Source: Chromera velia (taxonomy: Eukaryota; Sar; Chromeraceae). From it: a stretch of DNA of 22,500 nucleotides. Made by a program: the position numbers and the translations under genes. The notes beneath the pieces were generated by a model. That model did no database searches, had not been told where the DNA came from, and saw nothing but the letters and a program-made list of their open reading frames with translations. Every line of letters starts with the position of its first letter. Within the stretch, counting starts at the first letter, position 1. Positions 1,934 to 19,330 of the stretch are shown in pieces. The stretch covers positions 1 through 22,500 of the forward strand of contig JAHBMJ010001330.1 of NCBI GenBank assembly GCA_018398765.1, read 5' to 3'.

Positions 1934-2189
1934 TCAAGGCCCCAGAGTAGCCGAAAACCTCTCAGGAGGTGTCACAAAGTCAGGATTTGGAATGAATTCG
2001 TCCCCAACGAAGGTGAAAGAGATCACATGAGAGCTCACCCATCTGCAAAAAAAACAAACACGCGCCATGAACTTCATGGAATGCAGCAGCGGACTCTGGA
2101 AGGTATGTAGACTCCCTGTCGCTCTCCCACTCAGGCAGGCAGGCAGACGGGCACAGAGAGAGACGAAGAGAAAGACCTCCATCCGAGCA

Positions 2190-2222
<33 letters not shown>

Positions 2223-2227
2223 GGGGN

Positions 2228-2268
<41 letters not shown>

Positions 2269-5200
2269 AAGAGAAAGAGAAAGAAAGAGAAAGAAAGGGA
2301 GAAAGGGAGAAAGACAGACATAAAGAAAGAGCGCAAGCAAACCAGTAAGCAAACAAAAAAGCAAGGTCGGAAGAGAGGAAGGATGGAAGCAAAGAATTGA
2401 AAGTCGAAATCTCGACTCGATATTAGAATGTGGAGAGGCCGACAGGAAGAAGATCCTTTCTTTTGTTTACACAAAAAGCTCACGCTCAACAGAAACAAAA
2501 AAGGGGACAGCACAACCAGCACTCAGGAAAAACTTTTTCGCATGGATTCCGAAAGAACCAGCCTCACGCAGCTTGAGAAGACTTCATTGCATCCACACAT
2601 TCTAACGCCATTTGAACACATCACCGCGGTTTCCAAATGCTTCCGCAAAACCGGAAGGGGAACAGAAGAAGCATGTCGCAATCCGGACAAAAACAGAGAA
2701 ATCAAACGAAATGATTCAACGAAGACGCATCAAACGGACCGTTGCGCCCTGTCCCTTGCCCTTTTGTCTTGTTGTCCCTGTGTCCCTCCCGCCTTTTGCA
2801 CGAAGTCTCGGAAGAGGTCGTTCGAGACCACGCATCCGTCGTGAGTTTGGGCATACCTGCATACGCTCCAGCAATTTTCATTTTTGACAACTGATTCGTT
2901 TCTCAATACACGGACTCCGACTGTTCTGCATCTTCCTTCAGAGCAATATTACAAAATTATTGTGCACGGTCAAGATCGATCACACTCGCTCACGAAAGCG
3001 GAAAGAGAAGGCCTCAGAGAGAATTAAGAGAGCAGAACGGAGACAAAAGCAAGCACCGGGATGAGATGTGGGAAATTCACAGCTGGTTCACTTTTTTACG
3101 GAAAAACGGATCAGCGACTGGGTTGCAGGGTAAGGAAGTGATGCAGTTGCAGGGAAGTGCCAACAACAGTGGAGAATTACAAGGATCTTCAGTCTTCTTC
3201 TTCAAAAAGGATCACACCAGCAATCGGAATCTTATTATCCTGTGATTCCGTCGCTTCTGACTGACTTAATTGAGTACGAGTCGTCATAGTCCTGGGGGGG
3301 TGTCAATGCTACCAGTCCCTGTTTGACAAGAGACTCCAAGAGCAGAGGCTTGTCGGCAATTTTGCTCGGGTCCTTTTCTGGCTGCACGCAAAAAAAAAAA
3401 AAAGACTCACACTTTTACGTGGGATTTCTTGAACGAACAAGAGAAAAGAGTGAATGCACAGAAGGCAACAATCCCAGGCAGTTTGATTTCTGAACAGGCA
3501 GAAAAGGAAGAAATGAGCAAGCAACAAAAGAAGTCAGTCTGACTTTTCAAATCTCCCTCTAATGTCATGGTTGAACCCAGACAGAACCCGCCCGTTCTTT
3601 CCACTACTCGACTACAGACCGACACCCCCCTACCTTAGCAGGATCCTCCCTTTCAGGATGGAGTCAGGAACATTGCATGCATTCATTTTTGAAGAATTCT
3701 GTATGGAAATGAATAAGTGCACCCACCTTAGCAGGATCCTTCCTCCCTTTCAGGATGTAGTCAGGAACATTGCATGCATTCATTCTTGAAGAATTCTGTA
3801 TGGAAATGAATAAGTGCACCCACCTTAGCAGGATCCTTCCTCCCTTTCAGGATGTAGTCAGGAACAAACGCCACGGCCCTGTGCCCCCTTTGGAGATAAT
3901 AATCGAGAGCCAGACGAACACCCTCACAAGAGAAAAACCCTTTCCCAATGCCCACCCCTCCATGTCGCAACGCAACGTTGCAACCGTCTATAACTACCAA
4001 GAACTTACGCCCACCACCACCATCACTAAGCCCAGAGACCACCCCACTGACAGCAGCCGATGCACCCCCCCCCCGTCTCCCCCTCTGCGGCTCCTCATCT
4101 TCAGGACCAGACGGAGGAAACCCAGCCCCCGACTGACTCACTGGCACTACACCCACCGGCCGTCCCCGCCCACCCCCTCGCCTGTCTCGTGACGGAGACG
4201 GACGCTGGGTCTTCCCCGCCGCTGCACTCCCAGCAGCCACTGCCGCGGCATCAACCCGGAAAAGCCCTTTCCCCGCCCCGCCTCCCCTTCCAGGAGAGGC
4301 AGAAAGAGACGGAAACGCTGTCGCACTGTTTGCAGAGGAGGCCAACGGGCCGTCTCCCGCAGCCGTTGCGTGGCCTTGCTGCCGCACAGCAGCCTGCATA
4401 GCTGATGCGAACTCCGGCCATCCGCTGACAAGCGAAAGGAGACGCGCGACTTGGACAGCCGGGACAAATTCGGGCGGTGCTGGGCGGTCCTCGTCGACGG
4501 AAATCGACACGAACGCCGGGCAGGCTTCACTGATTTCCTCCGAAGCCTCCTCAATGCGAGTGGCCCCGCCGGAATCTTTCCGGGGCCGTCTCGCAGGCAC
4601 CTCTGCCTCATTTGCTGCAGTCGATGGCCTCGGACTGAATCCGGGTGGGGGTACGTCGGGATCAAATTCCTGTTCTGTTTTTGTTTCTTTGATGTCCAGA
4701 CAAGTAGAGATCTGCTCCCCGGGGTCGGAAGGGGAGGCAGCGGGATTATGAGCTACATGCAGGTAGTGGGATTCTCTATCTGTGCCTGTCTCCTCCCTCT
4801 TTTCTTCTCTTGTAGCAGACAAAACCGTTTCTTGGCCCTCTTCCCTCTCTCCCTCTCTAAAAGAGCCTCCGTGAAACGAAGCTCGGACAGCTGCTGCCGC
4901 TGAAGAAGAAGAAGCATGAATGAGGATCTCCTCATCCTCGTCTGAGGAATCCCCATGCAACCCGCCCACCGGCTCTGCTGCATACGATGCCATCAAATCT
5001 GTTGACGGGCCAACTTCCCTCCCATAATGCGCACCTACAACTTCTTCCCTCCCAGCCTCACAGTCTCTGCTCTCTCTTAATCCCGAATCTCCCCAACGAC
5101 CTGCACTGCCGAGACCCGCATATTCCCCCCTGGAATCTATGGACAAGCGAAGATTCATCAACCCTTCTGAGCCTCCGAAGTCTTCACTCACCCCCCCTGC

Positions 5201-7184
5201 CCAATTCATGTCAGCTCCCTCAAAATCAACATGTGGAGTCTCAAACACCCCCAAACCACGCGATCCGCCTCCTTCCCTGAGACTCATTTTTCTCTCCCCC
5301 TCTTCGTCTCGCGGAGAAGAAACCGAAACTGCAACCGGCCTTTCCCCCAAATCAATCGCAAAATCCTCTCCATACCAAGCTGCCAAGCTCTCCTCCCCAG
5401 CACCCCTACATTCTCTTTCTTCCTCTCCCCCTTGTTCTCCCCTCGTCTCAACATTCTCATGGCAACCACCCCTGATCCCCTCAATCCCTTCAGTTGTCAT
5501 TCCCATCCCCCACACTCCAATAAGCCCGTCATTCTCGTTCAATGCCTCCCCTAAAATCTCCCCCCCTTTCCCGTCACTCGATGTCAGATTGGGGGGCAGC
5601 AAACTCACCGGATTCACAAAGCAAAGCACCTGTTTTCCTTCCGCCCCTCCCTCCTCCAGGCCCCCCCCTGAACACGCACTAGATATGACTTCATCCTCTC
5701 CCAAACGAAAAGAAAGCAAACGACCCCAGTCCCAGCGCAGCCCGTACCAAGAACTCGCAACTCCACCCTCGTCTCGCAACTCTTCCGGCATCTCCAACGA
5801 AACAGACAACCGACCAGCACACCCGCACAATGCTGCTCGTGCTCGCTGAAGAGACGACCTCAGCACACCCCCAAAGGAGTCCCATCCTTCCTGATCTATG
5901 CAGTCTCGAACAAACAGCGAATTCAAGCACAGAGACGCAAGGAGGACACTAGGCAACCTTCGACAACTGTCAGCCACGGCGGCACACCGCAGCAGCATCA
6001 GTTCAGCAGCCAGCAGCGCCGTCTCACCCCTGGCATCCAATTCTGACGCTCTAATCACCCCTGTAGGCAATTCAGAGACCTCATCCCGATGTTGGGTGCC
6101 CCCATTGACAACGCCAGGCCGCGCTCTGCCCCTTGTTGCGGACACCAAAGCAGTCACATCCACTGCCGCCATATGGAGGAAAACACGTTCCCACCTTTCC
6201 CTCTCTTTCGCAAACGATCCCCTGCTGAATCTCTCCAGACTCCTGATGTGCGTCTCCTTGACTCCGTTGAATGACTGATCAAGCTGGAGTTTGCAAAAGA
6301 GACGCATATGGAGACGCAAACCCGATGTGAGCACGTGAGGGTATGCACCCTCAGAAAGGGCTGCAGTCGCAGAGGCGACACCCTTGGCCGTCGCTGACCG
6401 AGCTTTCCGTTCGATTCCCTCAATCTGCTCATTCAGAAACAGAGGGATGAATTCAATGTTCGGACGCCAGGGGTGAGAAGCGCAGACAGATTTGAGATGG
6501 GCAAACAGGACTGCGAAGGGTTCAGAGGGTCTTTTTCTGATCCACAACGCTCCAATTTGATTCCATGCCTTTCCGGAGTCAGGCTGAATTCTCAAGGCGT
6601 CACGGTACAGTTGGTGCGCCTCTCGGAAGGGAGAACTCTCCTCACTTTGGGGAGGAGGAAGGTATGTTGCCTTGTAGCGACATATGTCACCCCGGATGAT
6701 CTTGAAGTAGCTGCGGGCCTCCTTCAGCTGATCAGAGGCCTCTGGTCCCTCCTGCAGTTATCAAGGCAAAGATCAGAAGATCTGAAGAAGCACAATTCTG
6801 GGAAGGGCGGCAGAAGAAGTATGACAGAGGTATAGGACTGACCACAGAAATCGCGTTCTCCTTGCAGAACTGGTGAAGGTGTCGTTCGAGTTTCTTCATA
6901 AATTCGTCTACGGCCCTCAAATTTTTTTGGAGTTTCGCTGTAACCTCGGGGTCCTCTATGGGCCCCGCGGGGCGTCCCTTTAGAAGAGGTTTCAAGTGGG
7001 TAGAGTGGACTTTCACCCACATGGCATCGACAGTCTTCACGGGGGTCAGGTGAGTCTTTCCTTTTCCTATGAGAGCCCGATGTAGTTCTATTTCCAGCTT
7101 CCTGATGTCCTGAGTGAGGGAGGAGGACGAGGAAGAAGATGAGGATCCCCCACCCTCCTCCTGTCTGAGCCCTCCAGAGGGCAT
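1934..7184 (-). CDS. EST1/SMG5-6-7-like protein with C-terminal Zc3h12a-like NYN ribonuclease domain (5 exons)
   Basis: Proposed exons on the minus strand are 7184-6843, 6751-3824, 3381-3266, 2925-2857 and 2042-1934. All phases agree and give about 1187 residues. Residues ~30-115 (with VDAMWVKVHSTHLKPLL) and the start of exon 2 (ARSYFKIIRGDICRYKATYL, then YRDALRIQPDSGKAWNQIGALW) match the EST1/SMG7 14-3-3-like/TPR core. Family members bind phosphorylated UPF1 in nonsense-mediated decay. The middle (~residues 420-1020) is Gly/Ser/Glu-rich and probably disordered. From ~1030 comes the NYN/PIN-like fold of the Regnase/N4BP1 family: FLVVIDGCNVALRHGG, FSCEGVRLALDYYLQRGH, then YDDSYSIK in exon 3 and ISFTFVGDEFIPNPDF in exon 5. 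Metal-binding Asp of VVIDG and YDD are present; later acidic positions look altered. The start is the Met nearest the first EST1-like helix; upstream in-frame Mets exist. Exon 4 is the least certain. Domain assignments are strong; the role in mRNA decay is inferred. Confidence 0.8.
2189..2335. repeat. CA/GA microsatellite with an undetermined base
   Basis: An (AC)n run passes into (GA)n and then GAAA-rich purine sequence. A single N at 2227 sits inside it, suggesting a sequencing or assembly ambiguity. On the minus strand it lies in the last intron of the EST1-NYN gene (2043-2856), where it supplies a long pyrimidine stretch well upstream of the acceptor. Open frames across it are low-complexity artefacts. 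Confidence 0.9.
3633..3865 (-). repeat. Three tandem copies of an exon end plus 5' splice site (97-bp unit)
   Basis: The block coding VPDYILKGRKDPAK, followed by the donor GCTAAG|GT, occurs with its donor after 3824, again after 3727 and again after 3634. The period is 97 bp, with 93 bp for the outermost copy, which lost 4 bp. Between copies lies the donor-side intron start plus a GCATGC-containing segment. Each repeated unit also holds a CATACAG acceptor-like site, which would frame a 69-nt (3727-3795) or 65-nt (3634-3698) mini-exon with a 28-nt gap between. The 69-nt copy would be in frame and the 65-nt copy would shift frame. Reading straight through from the first copy meets a stop at 3761. 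The simplest model uses the 3824 donor, leaving the other copies in the intron. Confidence 0.85.
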
Positions 7185-7828
7185 CTCCCCTTTCTGCTTC
7201 AGCAAGTGGCTCCCCTTTCTGCTTTCCTTTTTCGAAACTGGCACGCACGAAAATCGGCAAGAGGCGGCTGGAATGCGATTGAAAGGACGTACAGAGCGGG
7301 ACAGAAAACAAAAGTAAAGCATCGGAAGCCAATTTGCTCCCCTTGTCGGATTGAACACAAAAGAGACGGCAAAAAACGGCATGCAAGGTATATATTGCAA
7401 GGTCCGATCGTGAATTGCACGCATGCACCCCTGACCTCGCCGTCCGACCATGCATCGACACTTTCGCGCGCGCGCGTTTCATGCATGGACGTCAGGGGTG
7501 CATGCATGCTAACCGTCTACATTGCATGACGATAACTCGGAGACGGAAAATTCCAAGCCAATGTCTTCGAGTTAACAGTTGGCACATATCCAGCTTTGAC
7601 CGCGACATAACTGCTGTCTGTACGTGCTCTCCTGGTCTGCACACGGGTATGTATGTCTACAGTCCACACGTCCACGTCCTACAGAACCCAAAGGTATTCG
7701 TTTTTAAAACTCTTCCTCAGTAGAAAAAGAGGCGGCAAAGAAAGTAGCTGCCTCGTCTGTCAGAAAGACTTTCAAACTTTACGCACGGGGATCGGAACCT
7801 GGTCCCAGGTTGTTCGTTCGCAGTCATA
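7185..7828. promoter_or_regulatory. Shared spacer of a divergent gene pair (EST1-NYN and RCC1-like)
   Basis: This 644-bp spacer separates the proposed starts of two head-to-head genes and so must hold both promoters and 5' untranslated regions. It contains a nested palindrome (7421-7505) with TGCATGC-type motifs. No TATA box can be assigned with confidence. If an upstream Met is used for the minus-strand gene, the left part of the spacer would be coding. Confidence 0.5.
7421..7505. promoter_or_regulatory. Nested palindrome with GCATGC motifs
   Basis: GCATGCACCCCTGAC at 7421-7435 is repeated as its exact reverse complement at 7491-7505. Inside it CCATGCAT (7448-7455) pairs with ATGCATGG (7481-7488), and the centre is an alternating CG run near 7465-7476. 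TGCATGC is a known promoter motif and AP2-factor site in apicomplexans. Its position midway between two divergent starts suggests a bidirectional control element; that role is inferred. Confidence 0.55.
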
Positions 7829-10259
7829 ATGAGCTCCACATCAGCCTCGTCTGTCGAAAATCGTTTGTTGGAGGGGTTGTGTGGAGACCTGAAGAAGGAT
7901 CAGGTCCTCCTGAAGGAACGGTTGACAGGGTTGCAGTTTGAGAGACGGCTGTTGGAGTTTGTCGAGAGCGGAGAGGAAAGCCTCCAGCTCTCAAGTGAGG
8001 AGTGTGTGGGAGATCGGAGCAGAATCTATCGATTGACGGGGGTTGGCGAGAAACTAGGGCTCAGTGTGGAAGAACTTACAGAAGCCATGGGAGGAAATGT
8101 GCATTTGAAGAGAAAGGTTGTGGAGGTACGCAGAAAGCCTGAGCAAGAATACGAACAGCCGTCCGCCGAAGTTTATGACGAGTTGAGGAGTCAGGAGGAA
8201 CTGCTTTCTAGCAGGCTGGGTGAACTAACTGTATGCGAAAGGGTTGGAAAGGATGAGCCTGCAGAGATCCCTTTTGTCTGGCTGGAGGGCGTCCATCCTC
8301 TCCGTCCCTCTTCTTCTTCGTCTGCTTCTTCGTCCTCCTCTTCTTCTCCCGTGGACTCGGAAAGTGAGCCGCGAGATTCGGAAGAGGTAGCACTTCTCTC
8401 TTGGCATCGTCCTGCAGACGGAGGGTTGCCCCTTTTGGACTATCAGTTGTGTCTAAAACCGTTGGTCCTCTTCCAGGACAAACCTTCCAACCCCCCTTAC
8501 AATTTCCAACTGGGGGTCAGGCTTCCAGAGGACGGGAGGTGGGAGGCCGTGGGAATGATTGACACCAGAGAGGCAACTGATTCCCCCCAAAAAGCAGGAA
8601 AAGCAGCAGCAGCAGCCTCTGCAAGTTCGGAATCTGAGGAGGATCAGGAGGGGATCATATCGAAAATTCAGGCGGGGGAAATTTCAACTTCGGTCGGTGG
8701 AGACCAGCAGTGTCTAGGAATGCACTTTGATGGATTTCTCGGCCCAGGTGAGCCTGCCTTCTTCCTCTTTACTCCCTCCCCTTCTGATGAAGCAATATCT
8801 GTCCCCCACTTCCCCCTCTCACCGTCGCCTGGAGATGGCAGCTCTGCTGTGTCTGTTGAGCAAAGAGAAAGAAAAACTGGACAAAGGGTAGCTAATGAGA
8901 AAGAAAGACAGTCATTGATGAAAGGAGTAGAGAGACACTCGGTGCTCCTGCCGGGATTGCGAGACCCATTCGGTTCAAGACAGGGGTGGCCCTTTGAGGG
9001 AGACCCCACGAACTACTCTGTTCCTTTAGTACAGGGGGCTGCGAGGGGGTGGTGGGTGTGGTTGAGGGCCAAAAACGAGAAGGGGTGGGGGGCGTGGCCC
9101 CAAAGACCTCGTTTAATTCTGTTGCCTCCAGCGCAATTCGTCCAGTCGTGTCGTTCGTTCTTTGACGGTGTGTGTTATTGGGGGCAGGACTGGGAGGATC
9201 TGGTTCGGACAGAGCATTTTCATCATGATGGTGATGATTTTGATCCGACTGTCAGAGACTCGCCTGCCCAGTTAGAGGGGGAGTGGGACGATGAGGGTGT
9301 CGTCGCTGTGGCTACAGGCCTTCCTGCTACCCTCATTGTGGGCAGAAAGGGGGGATTGTGGCAATTAGGGGGGGTTGTGTGCATTGAAAATGAAGAAGAG
9401 AGCGAAAAAGTAATGGAACGTGATCAGATTTTACTTGCAAAAAATGCCGAGAAAGTCGTCCTGTCTGCTTCAGGCAGTGCCTCAAGTGTCCCTTTCCGAA
9501 CTAGGTTGGCAGCGTCTGGTCATCTCTTCTGTGCGGCAGTCTCTTGCGAGGGCGATCTCGCTATGTGGGGACGATCTGAATTCGGGGAGTGTGGTGTAAA
9601 GAGGAAGTTTTGCATTGCCCCTTCCCGTCCCGCGCTTTCTGTTTTGAGCACTTCCTTGTCCGTTCCCGTAGTACAGATTGCGTGCGGGTGGCAGTCGGTC
9701 CTCTGTCTGGATGCCTTCGGGCAGCCTTGGACTTGGGGGGCACAGAGAAGCGTCGCGATTGAACAGAGACAAACACATCTACAAAACATCGACAAAGCCT
9801 CAAATCCTTCAGAGGATGGGGGCCTAGAGGGCCCAGGGGGTACACGTCTGCCGGGGCCCCCCGTTCCTCCCAAGGTGAATCACCGCGTTGACTGGAACAC
9901 CCAGAGCGTCCATCAGTTGAAGCCGCGTCTCATGACGGATTTCCTCCCCAACAAAGTTGTGGCCGTTGCCTGTGGCCCCAACTTCGACGGCGCCGTGACT
10001 GAGGACGGCAGGATGTGGACTTGGGGCCTCAACGTGAGTAGCGTGCTGGGCCACGGGGAGGACCTAGAGGGGAAGGTGGAATTCTGGACTCCCAGAAGGG
10101 TGGAGACGAGAGGCAACTTCGAAGCTGCACCAATCGTATGGGTCCGTCTGTCTGCATGTCCGTGTGGAGGCATGTCCGGCCTTTTGCATGTGAGTACGTA
10201 TGTTTGTATGTATGGATGGGTGGCTGAATGCACGAGAAACACTTACGCCAGATCTGTGT

Positions 10260-10298
<39 letters not shown>

Positions 10299-11004
10299 GG
10301 TCTGTCAGTCTTTCTTACCTTTCTTCCTTCCTTCTTTCTGAATAACCCTGAGGTAGCAAGCAACAGCTCACTTAGACTCTCCCAAACACAGTCTTTCGTG
10401 TGACTGCACGCAGATGAGCTTTGGGTCGACTCACAGCACTTGCGTGGATGCCGATGGGCGCGTGTTTGTGTGGGGGGACAACTCACGCGGCCAATTGGGT
10501 CTCGGCAGGGGCGTTGAAGGGGAAGGGAAAGGGGGGGCTCTGGACTCTGCGGCCCGTCTTGAGACTGTGAATCGACCCACAGCTCTGACAGTATTTGAAG
10601 GAGGGTGCGCTGGGGTGGGGGGGAAATCAGAGAACTTGCCTTTCCGGGGCAATCCGGTGTGCCTGCGTACTTTCGCCGGAGTGCACTCGACTCATTTTGT
10701 CATGCAAGATTCTCAAGGGGGGTTCTTGCGTGATTCGAAAGAAGGGGGAGGGGGCAGGAGGGTCCATTTTTTCTTTTGCGGGTCTACAGAGGGTGGAAGG
10801 TCAGGGGGGAACCTGATGGGGAAGCGTGGGCGTATGGGAAGTGCGAGTGGTCCCGGAAAGTCTTCAAAGAAAGATGATAGTGCACCTTATTATGTGGCTT
10901 GGAAACCCGAGCTAATTTGGTCGGAACACTCCCCTTGGTGGGAGTGGGCCCAGATGGCCTGCGCTCGCCTCCATACCGCAGCTGTTTTTCGATGGGAAAA
11001 ATAA
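7829..11004 (+). CDS. RCC1-repeat protein with fibronectin-III-like region (2 exons)
   Basis: Exon 1 starts at ATG 7829 and ends at 10141 or 10135. Exon 2 is 10414-11004. The protein is about 967 residues. The N-terminal ~150 residues are charged and helical. A FN3-like half domain (WHRPADGGLPLLDYQL, ~190-205) and its matching end (WWVWLRAKNEKGWGAW, ~408-423) are separated by an acidic/serine-rich insert of about 150 residues. RCC1-type blades follow: GVVAVATGLPATLIVGRKGG, LFCAAVSCEGDLAMWG, VVQIACGWQSVLCLDAFG, VVAVACGPNFDGAVTEDG, a blade across the splice, SFGSTHSTCVDADGRVFVWG, and AQMACARLHTAAVF at the extreme C-terminus, which could close a propeller. Donor 10142 restores the V-x-M-x-F-G spacing of a blade; donor 10136 (GTATGG) is the better splice sequence. 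RCC1 proteins act as GEFs or scaffolds; which applies here cannot be told. The spacer is shared head-to-head with the EST1-NYN gene. Confidence 0.8.
10255..10297 (+). repeat. (TG)n microsatellite in RCC1 gene intron
   Basis: A GT-dinucleotide run lies within the intron between the two RCC1 exons. Reading frames that run through it give a Cys/Val low-complexity tail and a stop near 10345, which is why the intron is preferred. Confidence 0.85.
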
Positions 11005-12817: not shown

Positions 12818-13867
12818 TCAGTAGTACCCAGGAGGACCTGTGCCGGGGCCCCCCAGGAAGCCCGGGGGGGGGCCAGCGCCCCTGCCAAAGCCAGGGGGGC
12901 CCTGTCCGAACCCAGGGGGCCCAGCAGGACCTGGTCCTCCCCCAAAGGCGCCGCCCCCCTCATCGATGATCACTGTGACGTTTGCAGGAGGAGCAAACCC
13001 GGGGGGAGGTGCTCCCTGCTTCCGTATCTGCTGCTCTTCTGGCGGTCTCTCAAACCCTGGGGGGGCCACGCGGTCTCTCTGGGGCACTGAGGGCCCATAT
13101 GCGATTCCAGGGGGCATGCCGAGGCCCCCTGCATAGTTCTCATCGTCCCACTTCTCTGTGTCATCAAACTTGCTCCCTCTTCGGTGTACCTCTGCGACTC
13201 CGAAAATATTGACTACAGTAGCGAGACCAGAGAAGACAATGGCAATGATCATGAGAATATAGGAGGCTCCCATGGCTGGTTTGACAAATCCCTGTGTGCT
13301 TTCGGATATGGGGGAGACAAAAGAGGGGAAAAATGAAACGGCAAGAATCATAAGAACCGTGGCGCCCAAACCTGGAAGCGCTGTAAGGTAGCTCCCCCCA
13401 CTTTTCACGGTCTCCTCGCTTCTGGCAATCCCCACAAGGATGAAAGCATGCACGGGTACCGCAATCAGACTCAGGTATGCTCCCATACGGGCCCAAGTGA
13501 GTCTGCTCGGGTTTCCGAAATACCACCCCTTTGCGTAGCGGTCCATGCTGCCATAGTTTCTGCACCCTGGCCACAATCCCTTTGACACCCCGTACTGGGC
13601 TTCTAGTGGGATTGCGCGTGTGATGTCTTTGATCTCAGGATCGTAGGCCATACAGAAGCCATTCATGCCGTAAGTAATGTAGTTTCGTCTGTCGCGCCTC
13701 CATGCTGCCCATTTTCCGATCAGAACAGAATTGAGCAGGAGGATCAGCGAAATGAGACAGAGAACAGACGCCACTGCAAACCATCCTTTTCCTGCTGAAA
13801 GGACGAAACCGGGCTTCTTATCCGCCTCCCCTTCCTTATTCTTCTTGCTCTTTTTTGTCTTCGCCAT
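12818..13867 (-). CDS. Four-pass claudin-like membrane protein, CLAMP-like
   Basis: This is a single open frame of 349 residues from the ATG at 13867, which has a favourable GTGAAATGG context. A longer frame reaches 14110 but has no support. A short Lys-rich N-terminus precedes TM1 (~29-50). A first extracellular loop of about 70 residues follows, with Cys72, the claudin-like GLWPGC (Cys102) and tryptophans. TM2 is ~127-148, TM3 ~160-185 and TM4 ~201-224. A ~125-residue cytosolic tail contains repeated PPGF units (APPGFERPPE, PPPGFAPP, PPGFGQGPPGF) and ends in PPGYY. This topology, with a Pro-rich C-tail, matches the claudin-like apicomplexan microneme protein CLAMP, which is needed for host-cell invasion. 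Orthology is inferred from architecture, not alignment. In a non-parasite relative it could serve secretion or junctions. It lies head-to-head with the HAD-DPY30 gene. Confidence 0.8.
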   Translation of the reverse strand: MAKTKKSKKNKEGEADKKPGFVLSAGKGWFAVASVLCLISLILLLNSVLIGKWAAWRRDRRNYITYGMNGFCMAYDPEIKDITRAIPLEAQYGVSKGLWPGCRNYGSMDRYAKGWYFGNPSRLTWARMGAYLSLIAVPVHAFILVGIARSEETVKSGGSYLTALPGLGATVLMILAVSFFPSFVSPISESTQGFVKPAMGASYILMIIAIVFSGLATVVNIFGVAEVHRRGSKFDDTEKWDDENYAGGLGMPPGIAYGPSVPQRDRVAPPGFERPPEEQQIRKQGAPPPGFAPPANVTVIIDEGGGAFGGGPGPAGPPGFGQGPPGFGRGAGPPPGFLGGPGTGPPGYY

Positions 13868-14535
13868 TTCACTCCACCTCCAAGGATCGAATGTTACACG
13901 CGATCCGTCTCCCCCTGACTCGCACTCGAGTCTCAACAGCAAACTGTATACACCTTCGCAGCTCAAAGAATGTCTCCTTAGCGTAGAGGCACAGGTAGGC
14001 ACTGTCAAAAAAACACGTGCTTGCTCAGGAACAGAGACGATGCTCGCAGACAGACCCAGATTCAACATGCAGACAATCAAAGCACTCATTGAACTCATGA
14101 AAGCATGCATGCATGCATGCCATAATCATTCCATATAATCTTGAAAAAAAAAAAAATCAATACAAAAAAGCGAATAAGAGCTATAGCGAGCGTGGAGCCG
14201 GCTGGGGACGCGCAGCTCAGCTGTCAAAATCAATTATTAAAGCTGTGCATGAGCTCAATGAAGATAATTTGTCGACACTGATTGTCATATCAATACTTTG
14301 CAGAAAGGGCCAGACACAGTTGCTTCGCATACAGACTCTCAGCTTTCCATTGGCCCTGTAATCTCCTCTTCAGTCGAGTGTCAGGAGGAGCTCCGATTGC
14401 GGAAGCGGAAGCCAAGCAACAGTCTAGGCGCACGCTGTTGCAACAGTGACGGGCTGCTGTGATCAGACTGACTCGACATTACTTCTTGCAGCTTGCAGTT
14501 TGCTGTATCTCAGCTTGACGATTCCATCTGCACTC
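13868..14535. promoter_or_regulatory. Divergent promoter spacer with TGCATGC run
   Basis: This 668-bp spacer lies between the CLAMP-like and HAD-DPY30 starts. An uninterrupted GCATGCATGCATGCATGC run lies at 14103-14120, giving four overlapping GCATGC sites about 240 bp from one start and 420 bp from the other. The motif matches a known apicomplexan AP2/ribosomal-protein-gene promoter element; its use here is inferred. No TATA box is assigned. Confidence 0.5.
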
Positions 14536-18625: not shown

Positions 18626-19330
18626 GGACAGAGAGAGAGAGGGGGGAGGGGGAGNGGGGAGGGGAGGGGAGGGGGGAGAGCGAGAAGAAGGAAGCACCGA
18701 GTAAAATTGCATACACTTTGCAGGCGGTGAGACATGCGGAGGCCAACAGGCTTGACAAGATCAAGAAGCAGAGGGAGGCCACTGCCTTCGCGGCGACGGA
18801 GGCTCAGAAGGCGGCAGAGGAGAAGTCAGTGTGTGCCTGCGCTTTTCGTGTTGCGTGCCAACGTCTTTGATTTTGGTTGTGCACCTTCCGTTAGGTGGGT
18901 ACGGGACTTGAAGGAGACAAACGATGCTTGAGAGTGTTCAAAGGTCGATCGATCATGAGGGGCAGCGAAGCATTTTGTGTCTCTGTACCTCCAGATGTCT
19001 CTCTCTTGCTTAATGTGCAACTGCACCTGTCAGGGCTCCCGTGTGTTTCTGAAGAATCTGAAAGCGTCCGCACAATCCTTCTGTCAAGCATGCATTCATG
19101 CATTTTCGTCGTCAAATTCTTGTTTGCTTGCTTGCTATGCGATTGATTGCAGCGTTCCTCTGAAAGAGCTTCCAGCTTCTGACTACCTCTACCGCACGGT
19201 GCTTCCAGCCCTCCACCCTGCCCTGGAGTCGGTGGCTCGAGAGAGGCCCGAGGACCCCCTCTCGTTCATCGCATTCCACCTCCTTAGGTACGGAAAGGAT
19301 GGAGGAATGGGGCGATCTCTCCTCGTGTAA
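14536..19330 (+). CDS. HAD-like protein with C-terminal DPY-30 motif (about 9 exons)
   Basis: Proposed exons are 14536-14706, 15093-15645, 15814-15944, 16515-16682, 16929-17128 (or 17124), 17384 (or 17386)-17591, 18340-18432, 18724-18824 and 19153-19330. Phases agree throughout and give about 600 residues. LILHFDTNALL (Asp30, Asn32) resembles motif I of a HAD-like family that carries FDxN instead of DxD. It is followed by AWGAMDNETGAWVL, then FFTLINVLTKEKRKFA spliced to IVLHATRKAG and LAELNLFCSGEH, which look like core strands and helices. GGKNALLMEDV and LVLIDTGNVDSHNVVFL could be later HAD motifs. A charged helix (KAVRHAEANRLDKIKKQRE) leads to the DPY-30 motif DYLYRTVLPALHPALESVAR and ERPEDPLSFIAFHLLR, a short dimerising helix pair used for docking in Set1 complexes, AKAP complexes and cilia. 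The last exon may instead splice at 19288. The exon 5/6 junction is ambiguous. Catalytic activity is uncertain. Confidence 0.7.
15963..16071. repeat. Pyrimidine-rich (CTT/CTC/CTG)n tract in intron
   Basis: The tract runs from TTC/CTT into CTC and CTG triplets, in the intron between exons 3 and 4 of the HAD-DPY30 gene. Frames through it give poly-Ser or poly-Leu and poly-Arg on the other strand, and are not genes. Confidence 0.85.
16191..16312. repeat. (GTCT)n tetranucleotide tract in intron
   Basis: Degenerate TGTC/GTCT units become regular between about 16258 and 16302, in the same intron as the triplet tract. A further short GTCT run directly precedes the exon 4 acceptor at 16512-16514 and may serve as its pyrimidine tract. 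Confidence 0.8.
16878..16905. repeat. (ATTC)n tetranucleotide repeat
   Basis: Seven tandem ATTC units lie just upstream of the exon 5 acceptor (CTACAG, ending at 16928) of the HAD-DPY30 gene. Confidence 0.85.
17286..17375. repeat. (CT)n microsatellite as polypyrimidine tract
   Basis: A CT-rich tract with two CCCTCC-containing sub-repeats runs almost to the TTTAG acceptor at about 17383 of exon 6 in the HAD-DPY30 gene, so it doubles as an unusually long pyrimidine tract. Confidence 0.85.
17588..17670. repeat. Degenerate (CAGT)n tract at the exon 6 donor
   Basis: GTCAGTCAGGCAGCCAGTCAGT-type units begin exactly at the proposed donor and extend into the intron. They create several overlapping GTCAG/GTCAGT candidate 5' splice sites, so the exact donor (17588 or 17592) is ambiguous; only the one after 17591 keeps phase with exon 7. 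Confidence 0.6.
18591..18680. repeat. (CA)n-(GA)n-G-rich microsatellite with an undetermined base
   Basis: CA repeats (18591-18622) pass into GA and then GGGGA units with an N at 18655. The tract lies in the intron between exons 7 and 8 of the HAD-DPY30 gene. Its layout and single N mirror those of the tract at 2189-2335. Confidence 0.85.

Follow-up and report, generated by a model that had tools for sequence, protein, structure and literature searches.

What does a protein do that appears to carry both a scaffold of the SMG5/6/7 type and a nuclease domain of the Regnase type, and is it a new kind of protein? The question is raised by a predicted minus-strand gene of the alga Chromera velia, in a stretch of 22,500 nucleotides (contig JAHBMJ010001330.1 of assembly GCA_018398765.1, positions 1 to 22,500; G+C content 0.50) that we will call the window. 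We conclude that the protein is probably a single-copy effector of nonsense-mediated decay (NMD) of the SMG6L type, and the best reading of its role is as a substitute for SMG6. The original study of SMG6L from Tetrahymena thermophila is reportedly Tian et al. 2017. As outlined in a section of a 2018 review (PMC6173133), Tetrahymena SMG6L belongs to the SMG5/6/7 proteins and has a NYN nuclease at its C-terminus; it appears to act with UPF1 in NMD and is conserved in many protozoa. An earlier reading of the window, made from the sequence only, knew of no described example of this architecture, and that claim has to be given up because Tetrahymena SMG6L was already in print. The Chromera protein looks like a further example of the SMG6L design rather than a new kind of protein. 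It is likely to be an ortholog of Tetrahymena SMG6L, to which we matched it by architecture as described.

The predicted gene has five exons and encodes 1203 amino acids, from an ATG at 7184 to a stop codon that ends at 1934; the sequence-only reading had both end points exactly (Table 1). The introns are GT-AG, with lengths of 91, 442, 409, and 697 nt, and the phases at the starts of exons 2–5 (0, 0, 2, and 2) match. The sequence-only reading had described four exons with consistent phases. It overlooked exon 4, which has 117 nt and whose omission preserves the frame, so the phases of four exons seemed consistent. We rejected the four-exon model because it lacks the aspartate of VVSND and because the isolated NYN domain scores 63.4 bits without exon 4 versus 95.8 bits with it.

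The fusion itself is independent of any splice prediction, because the TPR (tetratricopeptide repeat) region and the first NYN motif share exon 2. The SMG-type GDICRYK...NQ region and VVIDGCNVALRHGG both lie within one frame of 976 codons with no stops, while the other five frames across this exon contain 12, 19, 32, 30, and 51 stops. Could the two halves nevertheless come from separate genes, or could their join be an assembly error? A 97-bp tandem repeat at the border of exon 2 and intron 2 might raise that suspicion. However, the repeat lies downstream of the VVIDGCNVALRHGG motif, the open frame already joins the TPR region to that motif, and the later exons supply the remainder of the NYN domain in the right order and phase. 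We consider a split gene or a misassembly very improbable.

There is strong evidence, from profile and structure database searches, that the C-terminus is a Zc3h12a/Regnase-type NYN domain, nearly full length and with its four metal-binding aspartates intact. It matches Pfam PF11977 (RNase_Zc3h12a) with E = 2.6e-25 and 89.4 bits (the cut-off is 23 bits), covering positions 4–143 of the 154 in the profile. In a search of the PDB with the NYN domain, the best match was ZC3H12C (2.2e-17); matches to ZC3H12C, A, and B ranged to 4.3e-16 and were followed by KHNYN (6.4e-14). The metal of Regnase-1 is held by D141, D225, D226, and D244, according to a portion of PMC12982082. In an alignment to human ZC3H12A, with the correspondence between PDB chain numbering and our protein worked out arithmetically, the counterparts of these residues are D1036, D1123, D1124, and D1142. 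A Pfam scan found no PIN domain (PIN_4) at the C-terminus, where RNase_Zc3h12a was the sole domain match. Thus, the profile search bears out the sequence-only reading in placing the C-terminus in the Zc3h12a family and not with the ordinary PIN domain of SMG6. The scan also found no CCCH zinc finger, and the protein terminates shortly after the NYN domain.

Profile comparison supports the N-terminus being a divergent SMG5/6/7 domain. Using hhalign, we compared residues 21–245 to a profile built from human SMG7, human SMG6, and C. elegans SMG-7; the probability was 96.1%, with a score of 63.1 over 138 columns. The alignment starts at residue 62, which is within exon 1. The TPR part alone gave 96.2% and a score of 59.1. 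Three generic TPR proteins, as controls, scored 35.3, 38.3, and 34.1 (probabilities of 55.4%, 83.9%, and 59.8%), and the highest score among 100 shuffles of the whole domain was 20.4. By manual count, 14 columns are identical in all four aligned sequences, including GD..RY and P..G...NQ; the human SMG7, human SMG6, and C. elegans SMG-7 sequences alone share 24 identical columns in a separate alignment. The arginine of GDICRYK aligns with R163 of SMG7. According to a passage of PMC6739308, SMG7 depends critically on K66 and R163 to bind phosphorylated UPF1, and K66 is missing from SMG5 and SMG6.

Several results weigh against this assignment. Both Pfam matches in this half are under their cut-offs: 14-3-3 at residues 83–170 (E = 3.6e-4, with the whole protein) and EST1_DNA_bind (E = 0.086, with the exon 2 part). 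So the description of the N-terminal half as EST1-like in the sequence-only reading does not hold by Pfam thresholds, and is supported by the comparison to SMG7 and SMG6 at 96%. Genome searches with PF10373, PF10374, and PF00244 did not list this gene; the 10 matches to the 14-3-3 family (PF00244) are on three other contigs. The 14-3-3-like part alone is weak against the SMG profile (8.8%, with a score of 23.9 versus 20.4 for the best shuffle), and one natural TPR control reaches 83.9%. With a plain three-sequence hidden Markov model (HMM), designed TPRs scored 30.0 and 27.7 versus 25.6 for this protein, and with a second plain HMM, a designed TPR scored 33.0 versus 23.6 for the whole protein and 28.0 for its N-terminal part. 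Because designed TPRs outscore this protein, we do not count the plain three-sequence HMM as specific, and we rejected its use to establish SMG identity. Designed TPRs also led the PDB searches: with a 147-amino-acid query they reached 3.8e-21, as compared to 0.028 for human SMG6 and 0.7 for C. elegans SMG-7, and with a 502-amino-acid query the best of them had E = 9.9e-7, as compared to 0.18 for the TPR of human SMG6. In a single-sequence AlphaFold model of residues 115–480, the mean pLDDT (per-residue confidence) was 34.3, too low for a usable fold. Finally, no lysine equivalent to K66 of SMG7 is evident in the alignment, as is also the case for SMG5 and SMG6.

So we also considered that this might be a TPR-containing, Regnase-like ribonuclease from outside the SMG5/6/7 family, whose TPR recruits other partners and which cuts selected mRNAs outside of NMD. 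The lack of an above-cut-off match to EST1 or EST1_DNA_bind in Pfam, the failure of the family searches to list the gene, and the high ranks of the designed TPRs would all fit. However, this fits less well with the hhalign scores of 59–63, versus 34–38 for the three generic TPRs; with GDIxRY preceding the TPR and P..G...NQ, which are common to SMG6 and SMG7; and with the order of the two domains, which is that of SMG6L. We consider this alternative unlikely. Overall, the sequence-only reading is supported in its central claim, the fusion of a scaffold of the SMG5/6/7 type with a NYN domain of the Regnase type: both are in one open frame, with a strong NYN match and with the scaffold identified by profile comparison.

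To what extent does the rest of the genome fit with a role in NMD? We searched the 177.8 Mb assembly (4040 contigs), exon by exon. For the Zc3h12a NYN family, one of four candidates was a match, and it is this gene. With the N-terminal 449 amino acids as the query, two of three candidates were matches, and both are within this gene. We read the SMG6L-type gene as single-copy in this genome. A second EST1 candidate (C1083; PF10373, E = 0.11, sub-threshold) was rejected, as its translated open reading frames (ORFs) looked, on visual inspection, like tandem TPR repeats. Scans with this NYN domain of viral and prokaryotic genomes, which are collections not meant for alveolates, gave 5 and 32 pattern matches, respectively, and no relatives.

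The genome contains UPF1 (CH domain, 3.7e-59) and UPF3 (1.3e-7; two stretches of one contig). The first UPF3 stretch contains one TGA, as may occur where a match crosses an intron. We found no match in the genome for the SMG1, SMG8/9, Mago, PIN_4, or EST1 families, but these negatives are weak because genes were searched exon by exon; four of the five families matched in none of the control genomes, and PIN_4 matched in 9 of 14. A eukaryote is expected to carry PIN proteins such as Rrp44/Dis3, so the PIN_4 result, with zero candidates, is a weak negative for this reason as well. SMG1 was missing from all of the alveolates examined by Causier and colleagues, who infer that the SMG1 complex was lost at the base of the alveolates (PMC5709506, in the part that deals with this group).

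These results bear on another possibility, which is that a SMG5/6/7-NYN protein serves mainly in UPF1-dependent decay of specific mRNAs, or in Est1-like work at telomeres, and that another nuclease carries out NMD. Regnase-1-mediated decay depends on UPF1 and on translation (as stated in part of PMC6426291), and SMG5/6/7 proteins also act at telomeres (noted in the review, PMC6173133). On the other side, the absence of a CCCH zinc finger from the Pfam scan implies that the protein has no built-in reader of 3' untranslated regions of that kind. Also, the searches turned up neither a second SMG5/6/7 gene nor a PIN_4 match, although these are the weak negatives described above. We find this alternative quite improbable, and we favor a role as the NMD effector.

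How does the protein compare to known systems? It resembles Tetrahymena SMG6L in joining a SMG5/6/7 domain to a C-terminal NYN domain, and UPF1 is present in both genomes; SMG1 is absent in Tetrahymena and was not detected here (for Tetrahymena, as covered in the review). Metazoan SMG6 also has a 14-3-3-like/TPR scaffold and a PIN-fold endonuclease in one chain, but its C-terminus is a PIN domain rather than a Zc3h12a-type NYN domain. Regnase-1 and the other ZC3H12 proteins share the NYN domain with four metal-binding aspartates, but they carry a CCCH zinc finger, where the Chromera protein has a SMG-type domain at its N-terminus and no zinc finger was found. SMG7, including that of plants, has the 14-3-3-like/TPR scaffold (with GDIxRY in human SMG7) but no nuclease domain. 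In yeast, Esl1/Esl2 (PMC3789790) and Ebs1 with Nmd4 (PMC6173133) combine a 14-3-3-like scaffold with a nuclease, either within a single chain or as two partner proteins; these nucleases are PIN-type, unlike the Zc3h12a-type NYN here. A literature search for Chromera velia together with nonsense-mediated, covering main texts, found no description of this gene. The main text of PMC5862402 has no occurrences of SMG, NYN, or Regnase, and PMC4501334 has none of nonsense-mediated.

By analogy with SMG7, SMG6, and Regnase-1, we propose the following mechanism. The N-terminal SMG5/6/7 domain, with 14-3-3-like helices that would continue into the TPR, would dock on UPF1 at a terminating ribosome, probably via phosphorylated SQ/TQ sites in the tails of UPF1. 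The long linker would give the C-terminal NYN domain the reach to the bound mRNA, and the NYN domain would then make a metal-dependent cut near the stop codon. In addition, human SMG6 binds UPF1 independently of phosphorylation, via a stretch adjoining its TPR (as presented in a section of PMC4132714), so a phosphorylation-independent route to UPF1 could operate here too.

The UPF1 gene has two SQ/TQ-rich stretches. A 168-amino-acid stretch after the helicase exons has 8 SQ/TQ sites, versus a mean of 2.0 in shuffles (P = 5e-5), and an N-terminal stretch of 153 amino acids has 6 versus a mean of 2.5 (P = 0.018), but these P values are rough because we chose the boundaries by eye, the 168-amino-acid stretch ends on SQ, and its joining to the helicase exons is predicted. 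The CH exon (277 amino acids) has 1 site versus a mean of 0.6 (P = 0.45). In the wording of the review (PMC6173133), the UPF1 of Tetrahymena apparently lacks the classical phosphorylation sites. If our reading of these stretches is right, then UPF1 in Chromera retains the SMG1-type phosphorylation sites known elsewhere, though SMG1 was not detected.

Putting these observations together, we tentatively suggest, as a less than even prospect, that in this lineage one protein, as the sole representative of SMG5/6/7, replaces SMG5, SMG6, and SMG7: it would be recruited to the phosphorylated SQ/TQ tails of UPF1 even though SMG1 is gone, and would make a Regnase-type cut. Another PIK kinase would then phosphorylate the tails of UPF1.

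Table 1. Locations of the exons and domains of the SMG6L-type gene, and of the UPF1 gene
Feature	Position	Strand	Description
Exon 1	6843..7184	-	Residues 1-114; N-terminal part, 14-3-3-like on weak evidence (hhalign and sub-cut-off Pfam match)
Exon 2	3824..6751	-	Residues 115-1090; SMG-type TPR part, long linker, and first third of the NYN domain
GDICRYK motif	6671..6691	-	Residues 135-141; the counterpart in human SMG7 is GDIARYR, with R163
Linker	4004..5596	-	Residues 500-1030; G, E, A, S, and R are most abundant; one PPGF motif, at residue 816
NYN (RNase_Zc3h12a) domain	1976..4000	-	Residues 1032-1190, over exons 2-5; Pfam PF11977
Exon 3	3266..3381	-	YDD, with catalytic aspartates D1123 and D1124
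Exon 4	2740..2856	-	THDGCVVSNDLFRDF; fourth catalytic aspartate, D1142
Exon 5	1934..2042	-	FTFVGDEFIPNPDF; completes the NYN domain and carries the stop codon
UPF1 gene (L006)	contig C1736, 10600-20500		ORFs; N-terminal and post-helicase stretches are SQ/TQ-rich

The gene model also suggests some possible isoforms. Skipping of exon 4 would stay in frame and would yield an isoform without the fourth catalytic aspartate. The tandem repeat (3644..3866 on the minus strand; 2.3 copies of the 97-bp unit, with 98% matches) covers the last part of exon 2 and the beginning of intron 2, which gives three copies of the GT donor. The first donor preserves the frame; reading through past it hits a stop ahead of the second. 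Splicing at an inner donor would thus lead to a premature stop, and the resulting isoform of this NMD gene could itself be NMD-sensitive. Alternatively, the repeat might be a trait of the assembly.

Elsewhere in the window, two plus-strand ORFs with RCC1 repeats (7748–11001) are transcribed away from the SMG6-like gene. A minus-strand ORF (12821–14125) has a weak match to Claudin_2 (E = 0.0023, under the cut-off), and PPGF motifs recur in its C-terminal tail; a single copy of this motif occurs in the SMG6-like protein. A plus-strand ORF has a Dpy-30 motif (18959–19327; 9e-12).

Our results extend the SMG6L architecture to Chromera, which is free-living and related to the apicomplexans, with an apparently intact gene and with UPF1 as a probable partner. 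They also raise a testable question: where SMG1 seems to be missing, do phosphorylation sites in UPF1 function jointly with a SMG5/6/7 protein that carries its own nuclease? If our tentative suggestion is true, then the fusion of a SMG scaffold to a PIN-fold nuclease arose at least twice, with a PIN domain in animals and with a NYN domain in protists, and this alga would retain a phosphorylation-dependent form that was lost in ciliates.

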